Assembly: GCF_017745095.1 (NCBI RefSeq)
Contig: NZ_JAGHZZ010000008.1
Span: forward strand, 1 to 64,000
Source of the DNA: Sporocytophaga sp.
GTDB taxonomy: Bacteria; Bacteroidota; Bacteroidia; Cytophagales; Cytophagaceae
Direction of reading: 5' to 3'
Length of the DNA stretch: 64,000 bases
A model generated the notes under the pieces. The model made no database searches. It saw only the letters and a list, made by a program, of their open reading frames with translations, and had not been told where the DNA came from. Each line of letters starts with the position of its first letter. Positions within the stretch are counted from its first letter, which is position 1. This document shows positions 6,710 through 51,226 of this stretch, one piece after another. Both the position numbers and the translations under genes were made by a program.

Positions 6710-6711
6710 GA

Positions 6712-6781
6712 GGTTCCGAGCGGATTCGAACCGCTGTAAAAGGTTTTGCAGACCTCTGCCTAGCCACTCGGCCACAGAACC
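6712..6781 (-). tRNA. tRNA-Cys (GCA)
   Basis: A 70-nt cloverleaf. The acceptor stem pairs 6775-6781 with 6712-6718, with one G-T pair. The anticodon loop is CTGCAAA, giving anticodon GCA, and the T-arm contains GGTTCGAATCC. CCA is not encoded. A promoter-like TAAGTTTG lies 15 bp upstream. Confidence 0.96.
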
Positions 6782-17803: not shown

Positions 17804-17810
17804 TATTGAA

Positions 17811-18174
17811 TGCAAGCCATCTTATCGCTTCCCGATTTCGGGGGGAGGAAAGTCCGGGCAACAGAGAGCACCATACTTCCTAACGGGAAGGCTTTTCATA
17901 AATTTATGAAGGGACAGAAAGTGCCACAGAAAATTACCGCCTTGCAAAAGGTAAGGGTGAAAAAGTGAGGTAAGAGCTCACTCGTTTTGCAGCGATGTAA
18001 AATTGGGGTAAACCTTATGGGTTGAAAGACCAAATAGGTTCCGTCTACAGCAGAGTTGCTCGCTCTGATTCCGGCTACCGGAATGGCGGAATGGGTAGGT
18101 CGTTTGATTCCCGATGGCGACTTCGGGACCAGATAAATGATAAGACACGACAGAACCCGGCTTAACGGCTTGCA
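17811..18174 (+). ncRNA. rnpB: RNase P RNA (class A)
   Basis: The ends TGCAAGCC (17811-17818) and GGCTTGCA (18167-18174) pair perfectly as helix P1. Inside lie the universal conserved blocks GAGGAAAGTCCGGGC (CR-I side, about 17845) and ACAGAACCCGGCTTA (CR-V side, about 18150), plus a P-loop block with GGGTGAAAAAGTGAGGTAAGAG-type sequence around 17952. The RNA cuts 5' leaders from pre-tRNAs with the RnpA protein. The 364-nt length is normal for Bacteroidota. T residues after P1 (18175-18181) can terminate transcription. Confidence 0.97.
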
Positions 18175-18211
18175 TTTTTTATTTAACCTAAAACCGAACA
18201 AAAGAAGCAAC

Positions 18212-38750: not shown

Positions 38751-38825
38751 TGGGACGTACTGGACTCGAACCAGTGGCCCCCACGTTGTCGACGTGATGC
38801 TCTGAACCAACTGAGCTAACATCCC
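38751..38825 (-). tRNA. tRNA-Val (GAC)
   Basis: A 75-nt cloverleaf including discriminator A73. Acceptor GGGATGT pairs with ACGTCCC (one T-G). D-arm GCTC/GAGC, anticodon stem TCACG/CGTGG and loop TCGACAA give anticodon GAC. The T-arm has GGTTCGAGTCC. Position 33 is C instead of the almost universal T. Confidence 0.93.
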
Positions 38826-42388: not shown

Positions 42389-42421
42389 AATTAATACCTT
42401 TAAAAAGACCATAAGAAAAAA

Positions 42422-42446
42422 GTCTTCCGGAAAAAATCCGGAAGAC
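42422..42446 (-). terminator. Terminator after small lipoprotein gene
   Basis: A 10-bp perfect stem (42422-42431 with 42437-42446), loop AAAAA, is followed on the minus strand by a T6 run. It separates the small lipoprotein from DUF4349. Confidence 0.82.
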
Positions 42447-42462
42447 AACAGTAAAAAATATG

Positions 42463-42699
42463 CTATTTAGTAGCCGGCGCATCACTGTTCATTTCTTTCG
42501 GAGCGCTTTCTGGTTCTGCCTTAACAAGCGAATCTTCTTTGGGAGCCTGAATCTCTGAAGAGTCAATTTCCTCAACACTTGCTTTTTGTGTAGTGTCACC
42601 TGGATTTTCTATTTTACCATGTTCATTATTGAATAAAGAATCACAGGAAGTAAGTGAACAAGAAGCAGCTATAGCTGCAAGGATCATTAAATTTCTCAT
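42463..42699 (-). CDS. Small acidic lipoprotein
   Basis: This encodes 78 residues. The signal peptide ends in the lipobox LTSC (Cys19). The mature part is short and disordered, rich in Glu, Pro, Asp and Ser, ending in DAPATK. I recognise no family. It diverges from the ECF sigma gene (240 bp apart) and is terminated by the hairpin at 42422. Confidence 0.7.
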   Translation of the reverse strand: MRNLMILAAIAASCSLTSCDSLFNNEHGKIENPGDTTQKASVEEIDSSEIQAPKEDSLVKAEPESAPKEMNSDAPATK

Positions 42700-42939
42700 A
42701 GGTGTATTTGTTAAATTTTACACTTCATCCAAAATTTATTTCAGGGTAACCCGTATAAAAAAAATATTTTAAAATTGGGTTACCTGATTTTCGTTTGTGT
42801 ATTAAAAGGGCAAAACTTTAACTGGGATTAAGCAATAAAAAATTTAAATTTTAATCAATCCATTAGAAGATTTAATCAATGATGGGATAAATGATTAACA
42901 GGATTTTTCAAGGGCTAATACTTATTTTAGATTTAAAAA

Positions 42940-43515
42940 ATGAGCTTTATTTCTGATGAGAAGCTAATCGAAGGAATGTATAATCCTTCTTCCGGGGCGC
43001 TGGAAATTCTTTACAAAAGACATTTTCCCATGATCAACCGGATGGTGATAAAAAACAATGGTTCGGAAAATGAAGCCATGGACATTTACCAGGAAGCATT
43101 TATTATATTCTATGAAAAATTGAAGACTGAAAATTTTAAACTTCAATGTCAGGCAAAAACATTCTTGTATTCTATTTGCAGAAATCTTTGGCTGAAAAAG
43201 CTGACAGAAAAGAAACGTTTTCCTGCAATCACAAACGAATCAGAAAATTTTATTTCTGTAGAAGATTCAATTCTGGAAGCTGAATATAGAGAAAATGATT
43301 TCCTTAAGTTGCAATCTGCATTGAACCTTATAGGAGAACCTTGCAAGGGTTTACTTGAGGACTTCTATCTGCACCAGAAGTCGATGGAAGAAATAAGGAT
43401 AAAATTCCAATATACCAATGCAGACAATGCTAAAAACCAGAAATACAAATGTCTTCAAAGGTTAAAAAAATTATTCTTCAACCAATCTAAAGAAACAGAA
43501 AGTTATGAAGCCTGA
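42940..43515 (+). CDS. ECF-type RNA polymerase sigma factor
   Basis: This encodes 191 residues. Region 2 (about 15-85): LYKRHFPMINRM, DIYQEAFIIFYEKL and TFLYSICRNLWLKKL. Region 4 (about 125-185): a weaker helix-turn-helix around MEEIRIKFQYTNADNAKNQKYKCLQRL. ECF sigmas direct RNA polymerase to stress-type promoters and are held by anti-sigma factors. The next gene overlaps this one by 11 bases, so the pair is translationally coupled. Bacteroidota ECF sigmas are often linked to FecR or zinc anti-sigmas; here the partner is a protease fusion. Confidence 0.92.
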   Translation: MSFISDEKLIEGMYNPSSGALEILYKRHFPMINRMVIKNNGSENEAMDIYQEAFIIFYEKLKTENFKLQCQAKTFLYSICRNLWLKKLTEKKRFPAITNESENFISVEDSILEAEYRENDFLKLQSALNLIGEPCKGLLEDFYLHQKSMEEIRIKFQYTNADNAKNQKYKCLQRLKKLFFNQSKETESYEA

Positions 43516-44500
43516 ATTATGGGATGAGATTGAAAGATTTCTTAAAGGAGAATTAAATCCTTTGGAAACGTCAGCGTTTCAGGCTAAGCTAAAGTCTGAT
43601 TCCGCATTCAGAGAGAAGTTTGAGCAACATAAGGAATTACTAAATACCTTTCAGCGGTATTCAGAAAGACAAACACTGCAAAAAAGGTTGAATACTATTC
43701 CATTGAAAAAGGAAGGTAGCAAATTCAGACTAAATGTAAAAACATATGCAGTGGCTGCGTCGCTGACCTCTTTATTTACATTAGTCGGTGGTTATTTCTA
43801 TTTGAAATCAAATAACAATAATGCTGAATACAAAGCCTTGAAAAAAGATGTTGACCACATCAGAACATGGCAGCAGGTCATTACTCAAAAGCTTAATACT
43901 CCAAGCTATAATGCATCTGTTACCGGTCTGCTTTTAAACAGAAAGGGCTATATTCTCACAACTGCGCACGGTTTGAAAGGAGCGGACAAAATAGAAGTTG
44001 AAAACAATTCAGGATCTTTCAGCGCCAAACTCATTAAGCTTGATGAGTTTAACGATCTTGCATTGTTAAAAATTTCAGATACCCTGACAAACTTACCGGT
44101 CCCGAATTATAGCCTGTTTACAAAGGCACCCGAAATTGTTGAAAAATCCTTTATACTTGGCTATCCAGATAAGGATATGGTTTATGGAGAAGGCGTAATC
44201 GTTTGCACCAATGGCTTTAATGGAGATACCACTTCTTTTCAATTGAATATATTTGCAAACCCAGGAAACAGCGGGAGCCCTGTATTCAACGATAAGGGTG
44301 AATTGATAGGGATAATTAAAGGAAAACCAAAAGATTCCCCAGGAGCCTCTTATGCAGTCAAAGGTGAATTTATTCAAGAATTTATTAAAAGCTCAAAAGA
44401 AGACTTAAAATTAAACAGAAGAAACAAGCTTAAATCATTGAATAGAAAGGACAAAGCTAAGCAGCTTGAAAAGTGTATTTATAGGGTGAAGATTTATTAA
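43505..44500 (+). CDS. Anti-sigma-like membrane protein fused to periplasmic trypsin-like protease
   Basis: This encodes 331 residues. Residues 1-75 are helical and match the pattern of Bacteroidota anti-sigma N-termini (ELWDEIERFLKGELNPLETSAF); no zinc His/Cys set is seen. A single membrane helix spans 79-100. After a coiled linker, residues 135-295 form an S1C trypsin-like domain with His155 (LTTAHGL), Asp184 (EFNDLALLKI) and Ser256 (PGNSGSP). No PDZ domain follows; a basic tail (296-331) ends the protein. The overlap with the sigma gene and the topology suggest a membrane-bound anti-sigma whose outer part is a protease. This role is inferred; an ordinary anchored HtrA-like protease is the alternative. 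Confidence 0.85.
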   Translation: MKPELWDEIERFLKGELNPLETSAFQAKLKSDSAFREKFEQHKELLNTFQRYSERQTLQKRLNTIPLKKEGSKFRLNVKTYAVAASLTSLFTLVGGYFYLKSNNNNAEYKALKKDVDHIRTWQQVITQKLNTPSYNASVTGLLLNRKGYILTTAHGLKGADKIEVENNSGSFSAKLIKLDEFNDLALLKISDTLTNLPVPNYSLFTKAPEIVEKSFILGYPDKDMVYGEGVIVCTNGFNGDTTSFQLNIFANPGNSGSPVFNDKGELIGIIKGKPKDSPGASYAVKGEFIQEFIKSSKEDLKLNRRNKLKSLNRKDKAKQLEKCIYRVKIY

Positions 44501-44588
44501 AAAGATTCCAATTGCGATATAAGTAAAATTTAAGTTATTTGAACTTCAAACAATATATCAATTGTTTGAATGAAGATCGAAATACAAC

Positions 44589-44948
44589 ATGAACGACATC
44601 TCCAACAAAGAAGATATCAAGACATTGGTAGATCGCTTTTATGAAAAAGTAAACAGTGATGAATTGCTATCTCCCATATTTAACGATCATGCTGAAGTGG
44701 ACTGGCCAGAACATCTTCCAACTATGTATGACTTCTGGAACAGCCTTCTTTTTGGTTCTATGGAGTACAAAGGACAGCCCTTTCCAAAACATATGACTTT
44801 GCCTGTAACGAAAGAGTATTTTGAAAGATGGATACAGCTATTTACTGCTACATTAGAAGAAAACTTTGTGGGACCTAAGGCAGATGAAGCGTTAGCAAGA
44901 GCTATGAACATTGCCAGAGTATTTATGACTAAAATGGGCTTATTGTAA
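44589..44948 (+). CDS. Group III truncated hemoglobin
   Basis: This encodes 119 residues, short for a globin. Typical group III motifs: VDRFYEKVNSDELLSPIFN, DWPEHLPTMYDFWNSLLFG, FPKHMTLPVTKEYFERWIQLF. The proximal His is probably in the KHMTLPVT/ERW region. It binds heme and likely O2, NO or redox ligands. The last 9 bases overlap the 3' end of the convergent phosphodiesterase gene. Confidence 0.92.
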   Translation: MNDISNKEDIKTLVDRFYEKVNSDELLSPIFNDHAEVDWPEHLPTMYDFWNSLLFGSMEYKGQPFPKHMTLPVTKEYFERWIQLFTATLEENFVGPKADEALARAMNIARVFMTKMGLL

Positions 44949-45952: not shown

Positions 45953-48379
45953 TTACTCGATAATGACTTTATATATCTTTTGAATATTGCCCGAATCTAT
46001 CATCACAAAATACAAACCACTTGGAAAGCCTGAAACATCTACTGCAAGACCATCACCTGATTTTAGATCTGCACCGTTATTCTGATAAACTATATTTCCG
46101 AAAGAATTCTGAATGCTTATCACCAGTTCCTGGTTTTCATCTACCTGCGACTCGATATGAAGGACGTCCTTTGCAGGGTTAGGATAAACAGCGAAAAACA
46201 GGTTTTCAAAATTCACAGCCACTATCTTACTTAAGGTTTGACTGCCGTCGTTATCTACTTCTGTTACTCTATAATAAACAACTCCACTTACAGGATTTTT
46301 GTCAACAAAAGAGTAATTTGAAACCAAAGACGTATTGCCACCGGCTTTAACTGTTCCTATCTTTTGAAAGGATATACCGTCTACAGATCTTTCTACAATA
46401 AAACTATTGCTATTATTTTCCCATGCGGTACTCCAGCTAATTTCCACACCATTCTTAGCACCTTTGGCTGTAATATTCAAAAATTCGACTGGTAATATAC
46501 AATCATATATAGCTTTTACCGGCACACGGGCACAAGGAGTACCGGCTGATATTGCCCATCTCCACATTCCTGGAACTGAAGATGCAGGTTGTCCCGACAT
46601 AGGCCCAACAAATTTAACGGAAGAGGCATATGTTGTCCCCCATGTCATACCACCATTATACCAGCTCATATCATGATTATTCGGAGCTGGTTCAGCATAT
46701 TCTATTCTGTAGTTCGTTCCTGCAGGTACTGAAACATTTGCAGGTACTTTCACCCATTGCCATGTACCGCCTGCTGTACAACCAGCACCTGAAGAATAAC
46801 TATAAGTTACTGCTCCTCCGGGTATTATAGTTCCAGCTGAATTTACTATATTAAATGCCATGGTAGTGGGACAACCATAAACAATTACATACATCCAGAC
46901 AGAGTCAATTACAAATGGAGTTATTGCATCAAAAACAAATTTGGTTTCATTCTGTACAGCACGCTGCCCTAAACCAGTAAAAGAACCAGTAGATGCTAGA
47001 GAAGGGCCTATTGTTGCTTTAAATGAAGACGTATCTTCCGCATAGAAAGTATAGTCAGAAGTCGCTGACGCAGAAAATGTATAAGTATTCCCTCCTTTTT
47101 TCAATAGATTAGCCGGGGCTGTTCCAGTTGGGCTGTTCCACCATTTGTATTTACCGCTATTTACAGGAGTAACAGATACGGTTGCATTTTGTACAGGACA
47201 AAATATAGTATTCTGAGGTACAGGCGCCGTTGTTGTAATTAAAGAAACATCAGAAACAGTACCGCATATTGGGTCTATAACATCAACCCTATAGGTGCCA
47301 GGAGTATTTACAAAGAAAGTCTTTGAAGAGTCATTTCCGCCAGCACGGGTTGGATAACCTTTATACCATTTATACTTCACTCCAACTCCCGCATGCCCCG
47401 CATCGAGCGTCACAGATGCCGGATCACATAAACTAAGATCAGGAATATCCACTGTAAAAGTATTTAATATAACTATTTGATCTGCTTTTGCACATGATCC
47501 ATTGTCAGTAACGCAAACTGTATAGGTTCCAGGTGTTGTTATTACCCTTGAATAAGGAGCAGACATCCCAAATCCTGAAAGGCCATCCGACCACGAAATT
47601 GAAGTAGTTGAGGTATGAGGAATTCCTGCATCAATAGTAACAGAACCTCCTGTACCGCAGATAGTCTTGTCAGGACCAAGATTAGGCTGAGGGCCTGGGG
47701 CTCCATAAGCACATCCAGGAATAAATGATATATCATCAATTGCAAAATCAACATACTGATCACAACCGATTTCTGTTGTATTTTCTATACTGATGGTTGT
47801 AGGACCTGATACAGATCCGGAGTTCCACACAGTTTCGAATTTGACCCATGTTCCGCTTGAGGTAGGTGCTGAAATAGGTGTAGTTAAGTCCGTTGAGCCA
47901 ACAGTAAATCGTAAAGTACCTGGAGGATTGTTATTATCCTTTAATGCATTAATCCAAACACTGAAGTAGTAGTTGGTATTGGGTTCTACAATAATGCCGC
48001 TTTGCTGCCATAGTTTAATATCCTTTGCACAGATTCCATCCACCATCAACATGTTATTGTCTGCAGAAGGAGAGTGATCGGTTAATGCTGCATTGAAAGC
48101 AGAGTTAAATATATTCGGATTACTTCCTACGTGAATAAAACCCGGAGAAGAGAAATTTTGAGTGGCTGGAGGGTCAAATTTCAAGTAACCATTTGTTCGT
48201 GTAGGATCACTGGTATATGTCCAATCAGCATAACCTTGAGAGAAATCACCATTTTTTACGAGGTTGGTCCCACTAGAAGTAGAAGAACAAACAGGCTGGG
48301 AAAAAACATGGCTTTTATGTAATATTATTATCAAAAAAATCAACAAGATTTTCTTGATGAAATTATCGGGGGACTTCAT
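45953..48379 (-). CDS. Large T9SS-secreted protein with type A sorting domain
   Basis: This encodes 808 residues. A signal peptide ends near HVFSQP. Residues about 30-225 form a jelly-roll CBM-like domain (NLVKNGDFSQGYADWTYTSD, DDISFIPGC). Several PKD/Ig-like repeats follow (about 230-420, NLGPDKTICGTGGSV), then a beta-sandwich (about 440-620) and a fibronectin-like segment (ITAKGAKNGVEISWSTAWEN). The C-terminal 75 residues are the T9SS type A signal: VYPNPAKDVLHI, then GFPSGLYFVMI. It is probably a surface or secreted binding protein; no catalytic domain is visible. Glycan binding is inferred. Confidence 0.9.
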   Translation of the reverse strand: MKSPDNFIKKILLIFLIIILHKSHVFSQPVCSSTSSGTNLVKNGDFSQGYADWTYTSDPTRTNGYLKFDPPATQNFSSPGFIHVGSNPNIFNSAFNAALTDHSPSADNNMLMVDGICAKDIKLWQQSGIIVEPNTNYYFSVWINALKDNNNPPGTLRFTVGSTDLTTPISAPTSSGTWVKFETVWNSGSVSGPTTISIENTTEIGCDQYVDFAIDDISFIPGCAYGAPGPQPNLGPDKTICGTGGSVTIDAGIPHTSTTSISWSDGLSGFGMSAPYSRVITTPGTYTVCVTDNGSCAKADQIVILNTFTVDIPDLSLCDPASVTLDAGHAGVGVKYKWYKGYPTRAGGNDSSKTFFVNTPGTYRVDVIDPICGTVSDVSLITTTAPVPQNTIFCPVQNATVSVTPVNSGKYKWWNSPTGTAPANLLKKGGNTYTFSASATSDYTFYAEDTSSFKATIGPSLASTGSFTGLGQRAVQNETKFVFDAITPFVIDSVWMYVIVYGCPTTMAFNIVNSAGTIIPGGAVTYSYSSGAGCTAGGTWQWVKVPANVSVPAGTNYRIEYAEPAPNNHDMSWYNGGMTWGTTYASSVKFVGPMSGQPASSVPGMWRWAISAGTPCARVPVKAIYDCILPVEFLNITAKGAKNGVEISWSTAWENNSNSFIVERSVDGISFQKIGTVKAGGNTSLVSNYSFVDKNPVSGVVYYRVTEVDNDGSQTLSKIVAVNFENLFFAVYPNPAKDVLHIESQVDENQELVISIQNSFGNIVYQNNGADLKSGDGLAVDVSGFPSGLYFVMIDSGNIQKIYKVIIE

Positions 48380-48655
48380 TTGATTGATATTTTGGTTAAT
48401 AATCAGAAGATTATATATTCTTTAATACGGAAAAATGATCAAAGTAACCAGCGAATATTAACATATCAACAAAAAAATAGACGAAACAAATAAAATCACA
48501 CACATATCAATAAAAAACAACACACCAATACAGAAAATATAACTATTCAAACAAAAAATTACACTAACAAGATTAAAATAAACTAAGCACCAAATTCACA
48601 ACAGGTTGTAATAAAATACAAAAACTAGGATTAAAATGGCACTAAAGTCCAGGTT

Positions 48656-51138: not shown

Positions 51139-51226
51139 CAGAGAGGAAGGGATTCGAACCCTCGATACCCTTTTGAGGTATACACACTTTCCAGGCGTGC
51201 TCCTTCAACCACTCGGACACCTCTCT
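51139..51226 (-). tRNA. tRNA-Ser (GGA)
   Basis: An 88-nt class II tRNA with a long variable arm. Acceptor AGAGAGG/CCTCTCT with discriminator G73. Anticodon loop CTGGAAA gives anticodon GGA. The T-arm contains GGTTCGAATCC. CCA not encoded. Confidence 0.95.

Follow-up and report, generated by a model that had tools for sequence, protein, structure and literature searches.

The described systems closest to the locus reported here are the RpoE–RseA–DegS–RseP–ClpXP cascade of Escherichia coli and AlgU–MucA–AlgW of Pseudomonas. According to two published accounts, release of the sigma factor follows the order DegS, RseP, ClpXP (PMC7593790, PMC8144685). In RsgI, XAA sites in the membrane helices act as ClpXP tags (PMC12203970). 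Given a substrate, the HtrAw protease of Brevibacillus severs its own anchor domain, one molecule acting on another; the authors remark that autoprocessing of this sort seems to be widespread among HtrAs (PMC5359297). For the Bacteroidetes, PMC7406223 places a class I anti-sigma domain near only 6% of the ECF factors.

The locus lies in a 64,000-nucleotide stretch of DNA from Sporocytophaga sp. (positions 1 to 64,000 of contig NZ_JAGHZZ010000008.1), referred to as the window, which also holds a class A RNase P RNA (17809-18180) and tRNA matches at 6711-6781, 38751-38825 and 51139-51226. Computational analysis found at this locus an ECF gene, an anti-sigma-type fold, a membrane helix, a protease with an invariant triad, an unvarying association of the two genes, and a conserved promoter motif. 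Probably, the locus encodes an ECF sigma factor that regulates its own expression and is kept at the inner membrane by an anti-sigma factor fused to an HtrA/DegS-type periplasmic protease of its own. No report of such a fusion or of the motif was found in the literature searched, and the published ECF group classification may already list the group.

The gene pair and its distribution

The ECF sigma factor gene (42940..43515, plus strand) encodes 191 aa. Its product matches Sigma70_r2 of Pfam above the cut-off (6.3e-8) and the NCBIfam sigma70-ECF model over residues 20-177 (1.1e-13; 51.1 bits, cut-off 42.9), with no separate Pfam match for region 4, and it is 36-94% identical to 44 other aligned orthologs. 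The gene of the fused anti-sigma-type/HtrA-type protease (43505..44500, plus strand; 331 aa) begins with an ATG at 43505, and the sigma stop codon ends at 43515. The initial annotation had described an ECF sigma gene and a second gene starting 11 bases before the sigma stop, and both are confirmed in the sequence, the overlap being 43505..43515 on the plus strand. The same gap of -11 occurs in loci L014, L015 and L028. A globin gene follows the fused gene.

Co-occurrence of the fused gene with ECF genes in related genomes, which had been proposed as a count worth making, proved complete. Among 76 loci, an ECF gene stands upstream on the same strand at 52/52 fused-protein loci (50 intact ones, together with L011 and L016, which are probably a single broken locus) and at 0/18 S1C loci in which the match does not include the N-terminal part. 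Thus, the protease also occurs free, and the link to ECF genes follows the N-terminal domain. A profile check returned domain and sigma factor in 50/50 intact loci and the domain in none of the 18 free S1C loci, the former figure being partly circular since most intact loci built the profiles. Gaps between the sigma and fused genes range from -55 to +173 bases in the intact loci. In L011/L016, from a Sporocytophaga MAG (G003), both genes are interrupted, by a possible assembly or sequencing error or by decay.

Matches at E 1e-20 or better were obtained in 27 of 59 genomes of relatives, with an ECF gene upstream in 25; in the other two (G018, G045), the matching protein is an S1C protease that begins like a signal peptide. 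In the phylum sample, 35 of 395 genomes match at 1e-20, 29 with an ECF gene and six without, and the four of these six that were examined have other N-terminal parts. The fused pair has been retained across many families of the order to which the window belongs, and the class has two further families with it; the pairing is not due to chance. By sequence comparison, the fusion is widespread in Bacteroidota and conserved beyond one order. A scan of viral contigs with the sigma factor found no relative, and the protease alignment retrieved two phage proteases from them. Several S1C proteases (L056, L064-L067, L069) have signal-peptide-like or lipoprotein-like starts and no ECF neighbors; at the C-terminal end, they resemble the fused protein.

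The domains of the fused protein

The fused protein consists, in order, of a three-helix cytoplasmic domain, one membrane helix, a periplasmic linker, a PDZ-less HtrA/DegS-type protease and a conserved tail. An AlphaFold2 model of the whole protein (seven aligned sequences, mean pLDDT 71) contains helices at residues 3-13, 19-31, 33-64, 78-102 and 106-131, a trypsin-type domain and, toward the C-terminus, a helix followed by a strand (314-330); pLDDT falls below 50 at residues 48-103 and 125-136. About 35 residues extend beyond the protease domain, and the conserved tail among them (residues 314-330; 44444..44494, plus strand) is modeled as a helix (314-324) and a strand (325-330) with a block pLDDT of 86-90. 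Mean identity among orthologs is 43% across residues 309-331, and R314 is nearly invariant. No PDZ model matched the protein in the Pfam and NCBIfam scans, so that its reported lack of a PDZ domain holds, and Pfam gave no FecR domain at E up to 1.

The anti-sigma-type domain comprises residues 1-64 (43505..43696, plus strand), with helices 3-13, 19-31 and 33-64, and is assigned from the model, Foldseek and the ECF pairing. When residues 1-77 were folded separately with AlphaFold2 (three sequences, mean pLDDT 78) and compared with 350,542 PDB chains in Foldseek, rows 1-6 were four MucA and two RsiW chains, with probabilities from 0.93 to 0.35, followed by unrelated chains at 0.20 or less. Because the E-values of the MucA and RsiW rows are weak (0.85-1.8), it is the ranking that counts: a class I anti-sigma helical fold of the RseA/MucA/RsiW type is indicated by rank and not by E-value. 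In the VIA comparison, RsiW reached Z 5.8 over 67 residues and MucA 4.3, and the next unrelated chain 3.2.

Profile similarity is weak throughout. No Pfam model exceeded its cut-off for residues 1-75; zf-HC2 was matched in 3/50 orthologs (best 0.0026), and other N-terminal Pfam matches were weak and partial. With hhalign, the domain scored weakly against RseA (4.7% probability, P 0.0086) and against zinc-finger (zf-HC2) anti-sigma proteins (6.9%, P 0.0052), the control against the sigma factor giving 0.2% and P 0.38. The HMM searches suggested by the initial annotation therefore divided: its residues 1-75 remained without a Pfam model above cut-off, and its residues 135-295 were borne out as S1C through Trypsin_2. 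Its anti-sigma-like reading of residues 1-75 is supported in the fold, by the MucA and RsiW chains in Foldseek rows 1-6, and the likeness on which the idea of a fusion depends was thus found as a fold resemblance, for residues 1-77.

Other identities were considered for this domain. No Cys zinc ligands occur in residues 1-75 or in the domain consensus, which rules out a zinc-finger anti-sigma (ZAS) protein, and the lack of a FecR match speaks against a FecR-type anti-sigma factor; DUF4880, the FecR N-terminal family, was matched in 0/10 genomes. Among the best 60 matches listed for the N-terminal profile against PDB sequences, PPAR nuclear receptors and one fusion protein (E ≥ 0.018) were judged chance helical matches.

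In the genome of the window, the N-terminal profile matches 16 places, each directly downstream of an ECF match on the same strand, as read by coordinates against the 57 ECF matches of the genome (two of the 16 paired ones being below the family cut-off). Only the copy in the window matched the protease, and in several cases copies behind ECF genes carry quite different outer parts. Of 108 profile matches in all, 29 loci were examined. An ECF gene lies immediately upstream in 28 of them; fused proteins account for ten of the 29, which leaves 18/19 for the others. The locus without an ECF neighbor (L125) encodes a FecR-type protein and is the weakest among the matches listed. Beside the fold, the ECF neighborhood is independent evidence for a putative anti-sigma domain. 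Given the MucA and RsiW chains in the top Foldseek rows and the 16/16 copies behind ECF genes, the modeled N-terminal domain looks like an anti-sigma domain. Two of the 50 orthologs (L040, L044) lack its helices 1-2.

The membrane helix (residues 82-101; 43748..43807, plus strand) is assigned from hydropathy and from the predicted helix 78-102, which has low pLDDT. The most hydrophobic 19-residue stretch, 82-100, has a modest mean hydropathy of 1.48, the same place ranging from 1.41 to 2.61 in the 50 orthologs; together with the low-confidence helix, it agrees with the single membrane helix first proposed. At its start, residues 83-86 read VAAS (43751..43762, plus strand), a candidate motif for site-2 cleavage and ClpXP tagging. 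A84 and A85 are Ala in 50/50 orthologs and are the sole invariant residues of a membrane-helix part with 31% mean identity; [VIAL]AA[SCTA] is found here in 48/50 orthologs and VAA[SC] in 29/50. The RseA of E. coli has VAAC at 106-109, where RseP cuts to leave a VAA end for ClpXP. An RseP-type protease is encoded in the genome of the window (C22:427617-428858; 5.2e-65). Among 22 protease-less relatives that share the N-terminal domain (one place, L007 = L133, being counted twice), the membrane-helix window contains [VIAL]AA[SCTA] in 6/22 and any AA in 15/22. AA alone is therefore common in such helices, and what stands out is its position and invariance. Since the pattern also occurs in protease-less relatives, the motif is less telling and may be a packing feature of the membrane helix.

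It is against this motif that a cleavage-free account must be set, in which the fusion ties the dose of protease to the level of stress, the fused protein being mainly an envelope quality-control protease whose free versus busy amount tunes the sigma factor through the N-terminal domain. The overlap of the two genes behind one predicted promoter and the existence of related S1C proteases without an anti-sigma part (L056, L064-L070) speak for this account, yet it leaves the two alanines, invariant in a helix of low mean identity, unexplained, and it is considered quite improbable.

The protease domain (residues 137-296; 43913..44392, plus strand) belongs to the HtrA/S1C type by its trypsin-like fold and HtrA-type triad, His155/Asp184/Ser256; the usual PDZ domain or domains are absent, and whether a PDZ domain is required for membership is a matter of definition. 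Trypsin_2 of Pfam matches residues 140-270 at 2.1e-18, and the modeled domain (block pLDDT 65-92) reaches Z 19.6 against DegS delta-PDZ and HtrA1. The triad aligns with H96/D126/S201 of DegS and is H, D and S in 50/50 orthologs. The periplasmic S1C domain with intact His155, Asp184 and Ser256 had thus been correctly recognized, down to the exact residue numbers.

The residues T167, R178 and Q191 are the activation residues of DegS. The Q191 position is Gln in 45/50 orthologs, the R178 column is Arg in 10/50, and the T167 column is Asp or Glu in 44/50, the loop being uncertainly aligned. At the H198 position, 47/50 orthologs have proline; H198P is a studied DegS mutant according to PDB titles, and it presumably favors the active state of DegS. 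Gly237 and Asp241, within a shortened loop, are identical in 50/50 orthologs. Identity with DegS was ruled out by the missing PDZ domain and the mostly replaced activation residues. From these columns, we infer an HtrA-type protease that may have its own activation switch, with no PDZ control.

Between membrane and protease, the linker measures 36-53 residues in 50 sequences, with 21% mean identity. It includes a periplasmic helix of low pLDDT (residues 106-131; 43820..43897, plus strand), a candidate site-1 region and stalk, and the linker is a plausible stalk and substrate. By analogy, we infer that the sigma factor may be released through protease activity or self-cleavage, as had been proposed; release by cleavage is made more plausible by the invariant triad, the AA motif, the RseP-type protease and the published self-cleavage of HtrAw. 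The protease domain might instead sense by binding peptides, the sigma factor being freed by a conformational change or by another protease's first cut. The fused protein would then use its proteolytic activity solely against other proteins of the periplasm. Neither the anti-sigma-type fold nor the ECF pairing requires self-cleavage, the linker is weakly conserved, and the first cut could come from one of four other S1C proteins encoded in the genome, whose open frames span 475-524 residues. A triad invariant in 50/50 orthologs would, however, be needless for pure binding, although activity on other substrates would explain it. This account is regarded as unlikely, and release by the fused protein's own cleavage is the reading followed below.

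The promoter motif and its candidate targets

For the sigma/anti-sigma operon, an ECF promoter is predicted at 42777..42804 on the plus strand, with GGGTTAC as the -35-type and GTATTA as the -10-type element and a 15-base spacer between them. In regions of 300 bases upstream plus 60 bases into the gene, GGTTAC-N15/16-GTATTA was found at 36/50 orthologous sigma genes; controls in the same regions gave 0/50 for the reversed pattern, 0/50 for spacings of 10-14 and 17-21, and 0.005 for shuffles. The strict motif is absent from the remaining 14/50, several of which have a near form. Because the spacers differ between species, what is conserved is a promoter and not a stretch of sequence. The motif is present at one of 24 protease-less ECF loci (L122), a set that includes places counted twice (L007 = L133, L076 = L121). 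In the window, the full motif has two matches versus 0.01 expected. The sigma operon thus appears to be autoregulated. A different ECF motif, with a CGT -10 box, is given for a flavobacterium in PMC9723704. A generic sigma-70 promoter scan of 42400-44700 yielded no excess (seven found versus 7.9 in shuffles). Compared with three other Sporocytophaga sequences, the window has more than 100 extra bases between promoter and sigma start codon (42805-42939), and these contain two TTTAATCAAT repeats.

The motif also precedes small (~60-90 aa) lipoprotein-like genes beside the sigma gene in 18/50 loci, in up to three tandem copies, the lipoprotein-like start being judged by eye and with a loose pattern. 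In genome G041 (L159), it precedes such a gene away from the sigma locus. Small lipoprotein-like genes of this kind in L029, L030, L033, L034, L021 and others encode low-complexity tails rich in Asp, Thr, Ser, Ala and Lys and are sometimes in tandem. In the window, the candidate target is a divergent small lipoprotein-like gene of 78 aa (42463..42699, minus strand), whose product has no Pfam match. The -35 part, GGGTTACC, is present before it, and the hexamer at the right spacing is GGATGA; the promoter match is partial because of this -10 place. In all four aligned Sporocytophaga sequences, GGGTAACCC is kept.

The second full copy in the window (48423..48449, minus strand) lies 43 bases before gene 45953-48379, which encodes an 808-residue product with a type IX secretion tail; it is kept, with a different spacer, before a similar gene in L011 (8905-8931). 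A protein of about 100 residues, alike in L166 and L167 (G091, G205), stands behind the motif and is a possible further target. The matches in L151 and L152 were judged likely chance.

The genome of the window shows no genome-wide excess of the motif (five matches versus six in the control). Ten other genomes gave 54 matches versus 32 in the control, and the excess is local because 23 of the 54 are at the sigma locus by coordinates. Among 30 motif loci examined, many of those at a distance from the sigma locus lack a sensible gene behind the motif. With no genome-wide excess, the regulon looks small, or there are other targets with degenerate promoters.

Proposed mechanism and comparison with known systems

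In the proposed mechanism, the N-terminal domain would bind and inhibit the sigma factor. Envelope damage would switch on the protease, most likely when the latter encounters, as its substrate, a periplasmic or outer-membrane protein that is unfolded or in the wrong place. The protease would then cut the periplasmic linker (site 1), either in its own chain or, with greater likelihood, in a neighboring copy. The shortened protein would next be cut by the RseP-type protease within the membrane helix, behind the AA motif (site 2). ClpXP would remove the released domain, and the free sigma factor would transcribe its own operon and the small lipoprotein genes close by, perhaps along with genes for a small number of exported proteins. 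Against this mechanism stand the weak hhalign and Foldseek scores, the two orthologs lacking helices 1-2, the poorly conserved linker, the replaced DegS residues and the lack of a genome-wide motif excess.

A more specific form is put forward tentatively, as a possibility somewhat short of an even chance. Here, a single protein would combine the roles of sensor, site-1 protease and anti-sigma factor; engagement of a substrate would lead to cleavage of a neighbor within an oligomer held by the periplasmic helix, and the regulon would be minimal. It would then be the occupation of the quality-control enzyme with substrate that raises the alarm, and the regulon would comprise the sigma operon and the neighboring small lipoproteins, which may feed back on the protease.

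Several described systems share single traits with the fused protein. RsgI differs in its sigma class and in its outer domains, which are sugar-binding or glycosidase domains. Nevertheless, RsgI of Clostridium thermocellum is likewise a membrane anti-sigma factor cut by RseP and has XAA motifs for ClpXP (PMC12203970). IutY of Pseudomonas putida is also a fusion within an ECF signaling chain, but it joins the sigma factor to the anti-sigma factor, (PMC7593790), whereas here the anti-sigma factor is joined to a protease. HtrAw of Brevibacillus sp. WF146 is a membrane-anchored HtrA whose anchor domain is cut off between molecules; unlike the PDZ-less fused protein, it has a PDZ domain, and the excerpted text does not describe its N-terminal part as an anti-sigma factor (PMC5359297). 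Likeness to FecR-type anti-sigma factors amounts to one FecR protein among the N-terminal profile matches, whereas the fused protein has no FecR domain.

Within the same genome, the protease-less ECF pairs L006-L010 have the N-terminal domain and the gene order of the fused pair. Their outer parts differ, with CHU_C type IX secretion-type domains in 3/5 and no Pfam match in 2/5. CHU_C is over the cut-off in L006 (C11:591844) and L009 (C18:30012) and weak in L008 (C22:476690); L008 and L009 also have weak SprB-repeat matches. The CHU_C-bearing domain proteins behind ECF genes suggest that ECF signaling may be tied to type IX secretion. A divergent, zinc-less domain with 16 copies in one genome may also explain part of the gap left by the 6% of Bacteroidetes ECF factors with a class I anti-sigma domain nearby.

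The closest likeness is to the E. coli and Pseudomonas cascades. Shared with this pathway are the ECF sigma factor, a single-pass protein with a MucA/RsiW-like domain, the DegS-type protease domain, the AA motif with which the membrane helix begins and an RseP-type protease in the genome. In the E. coli cascade, however, anti-sigma factor and protease are separate, whereas here they form one protein, with no PDZ domain and with R178 and T167 mostly replaced. The fusion is a concrete candidate for a Bacteroidota envelope stress pathway, for which a predicted promoter, a putative degradation tag and possible targets are also at hand. On the best reading, it is a version of the known cascade in which the counterparts of RseA and DegS have in effect become one protein.
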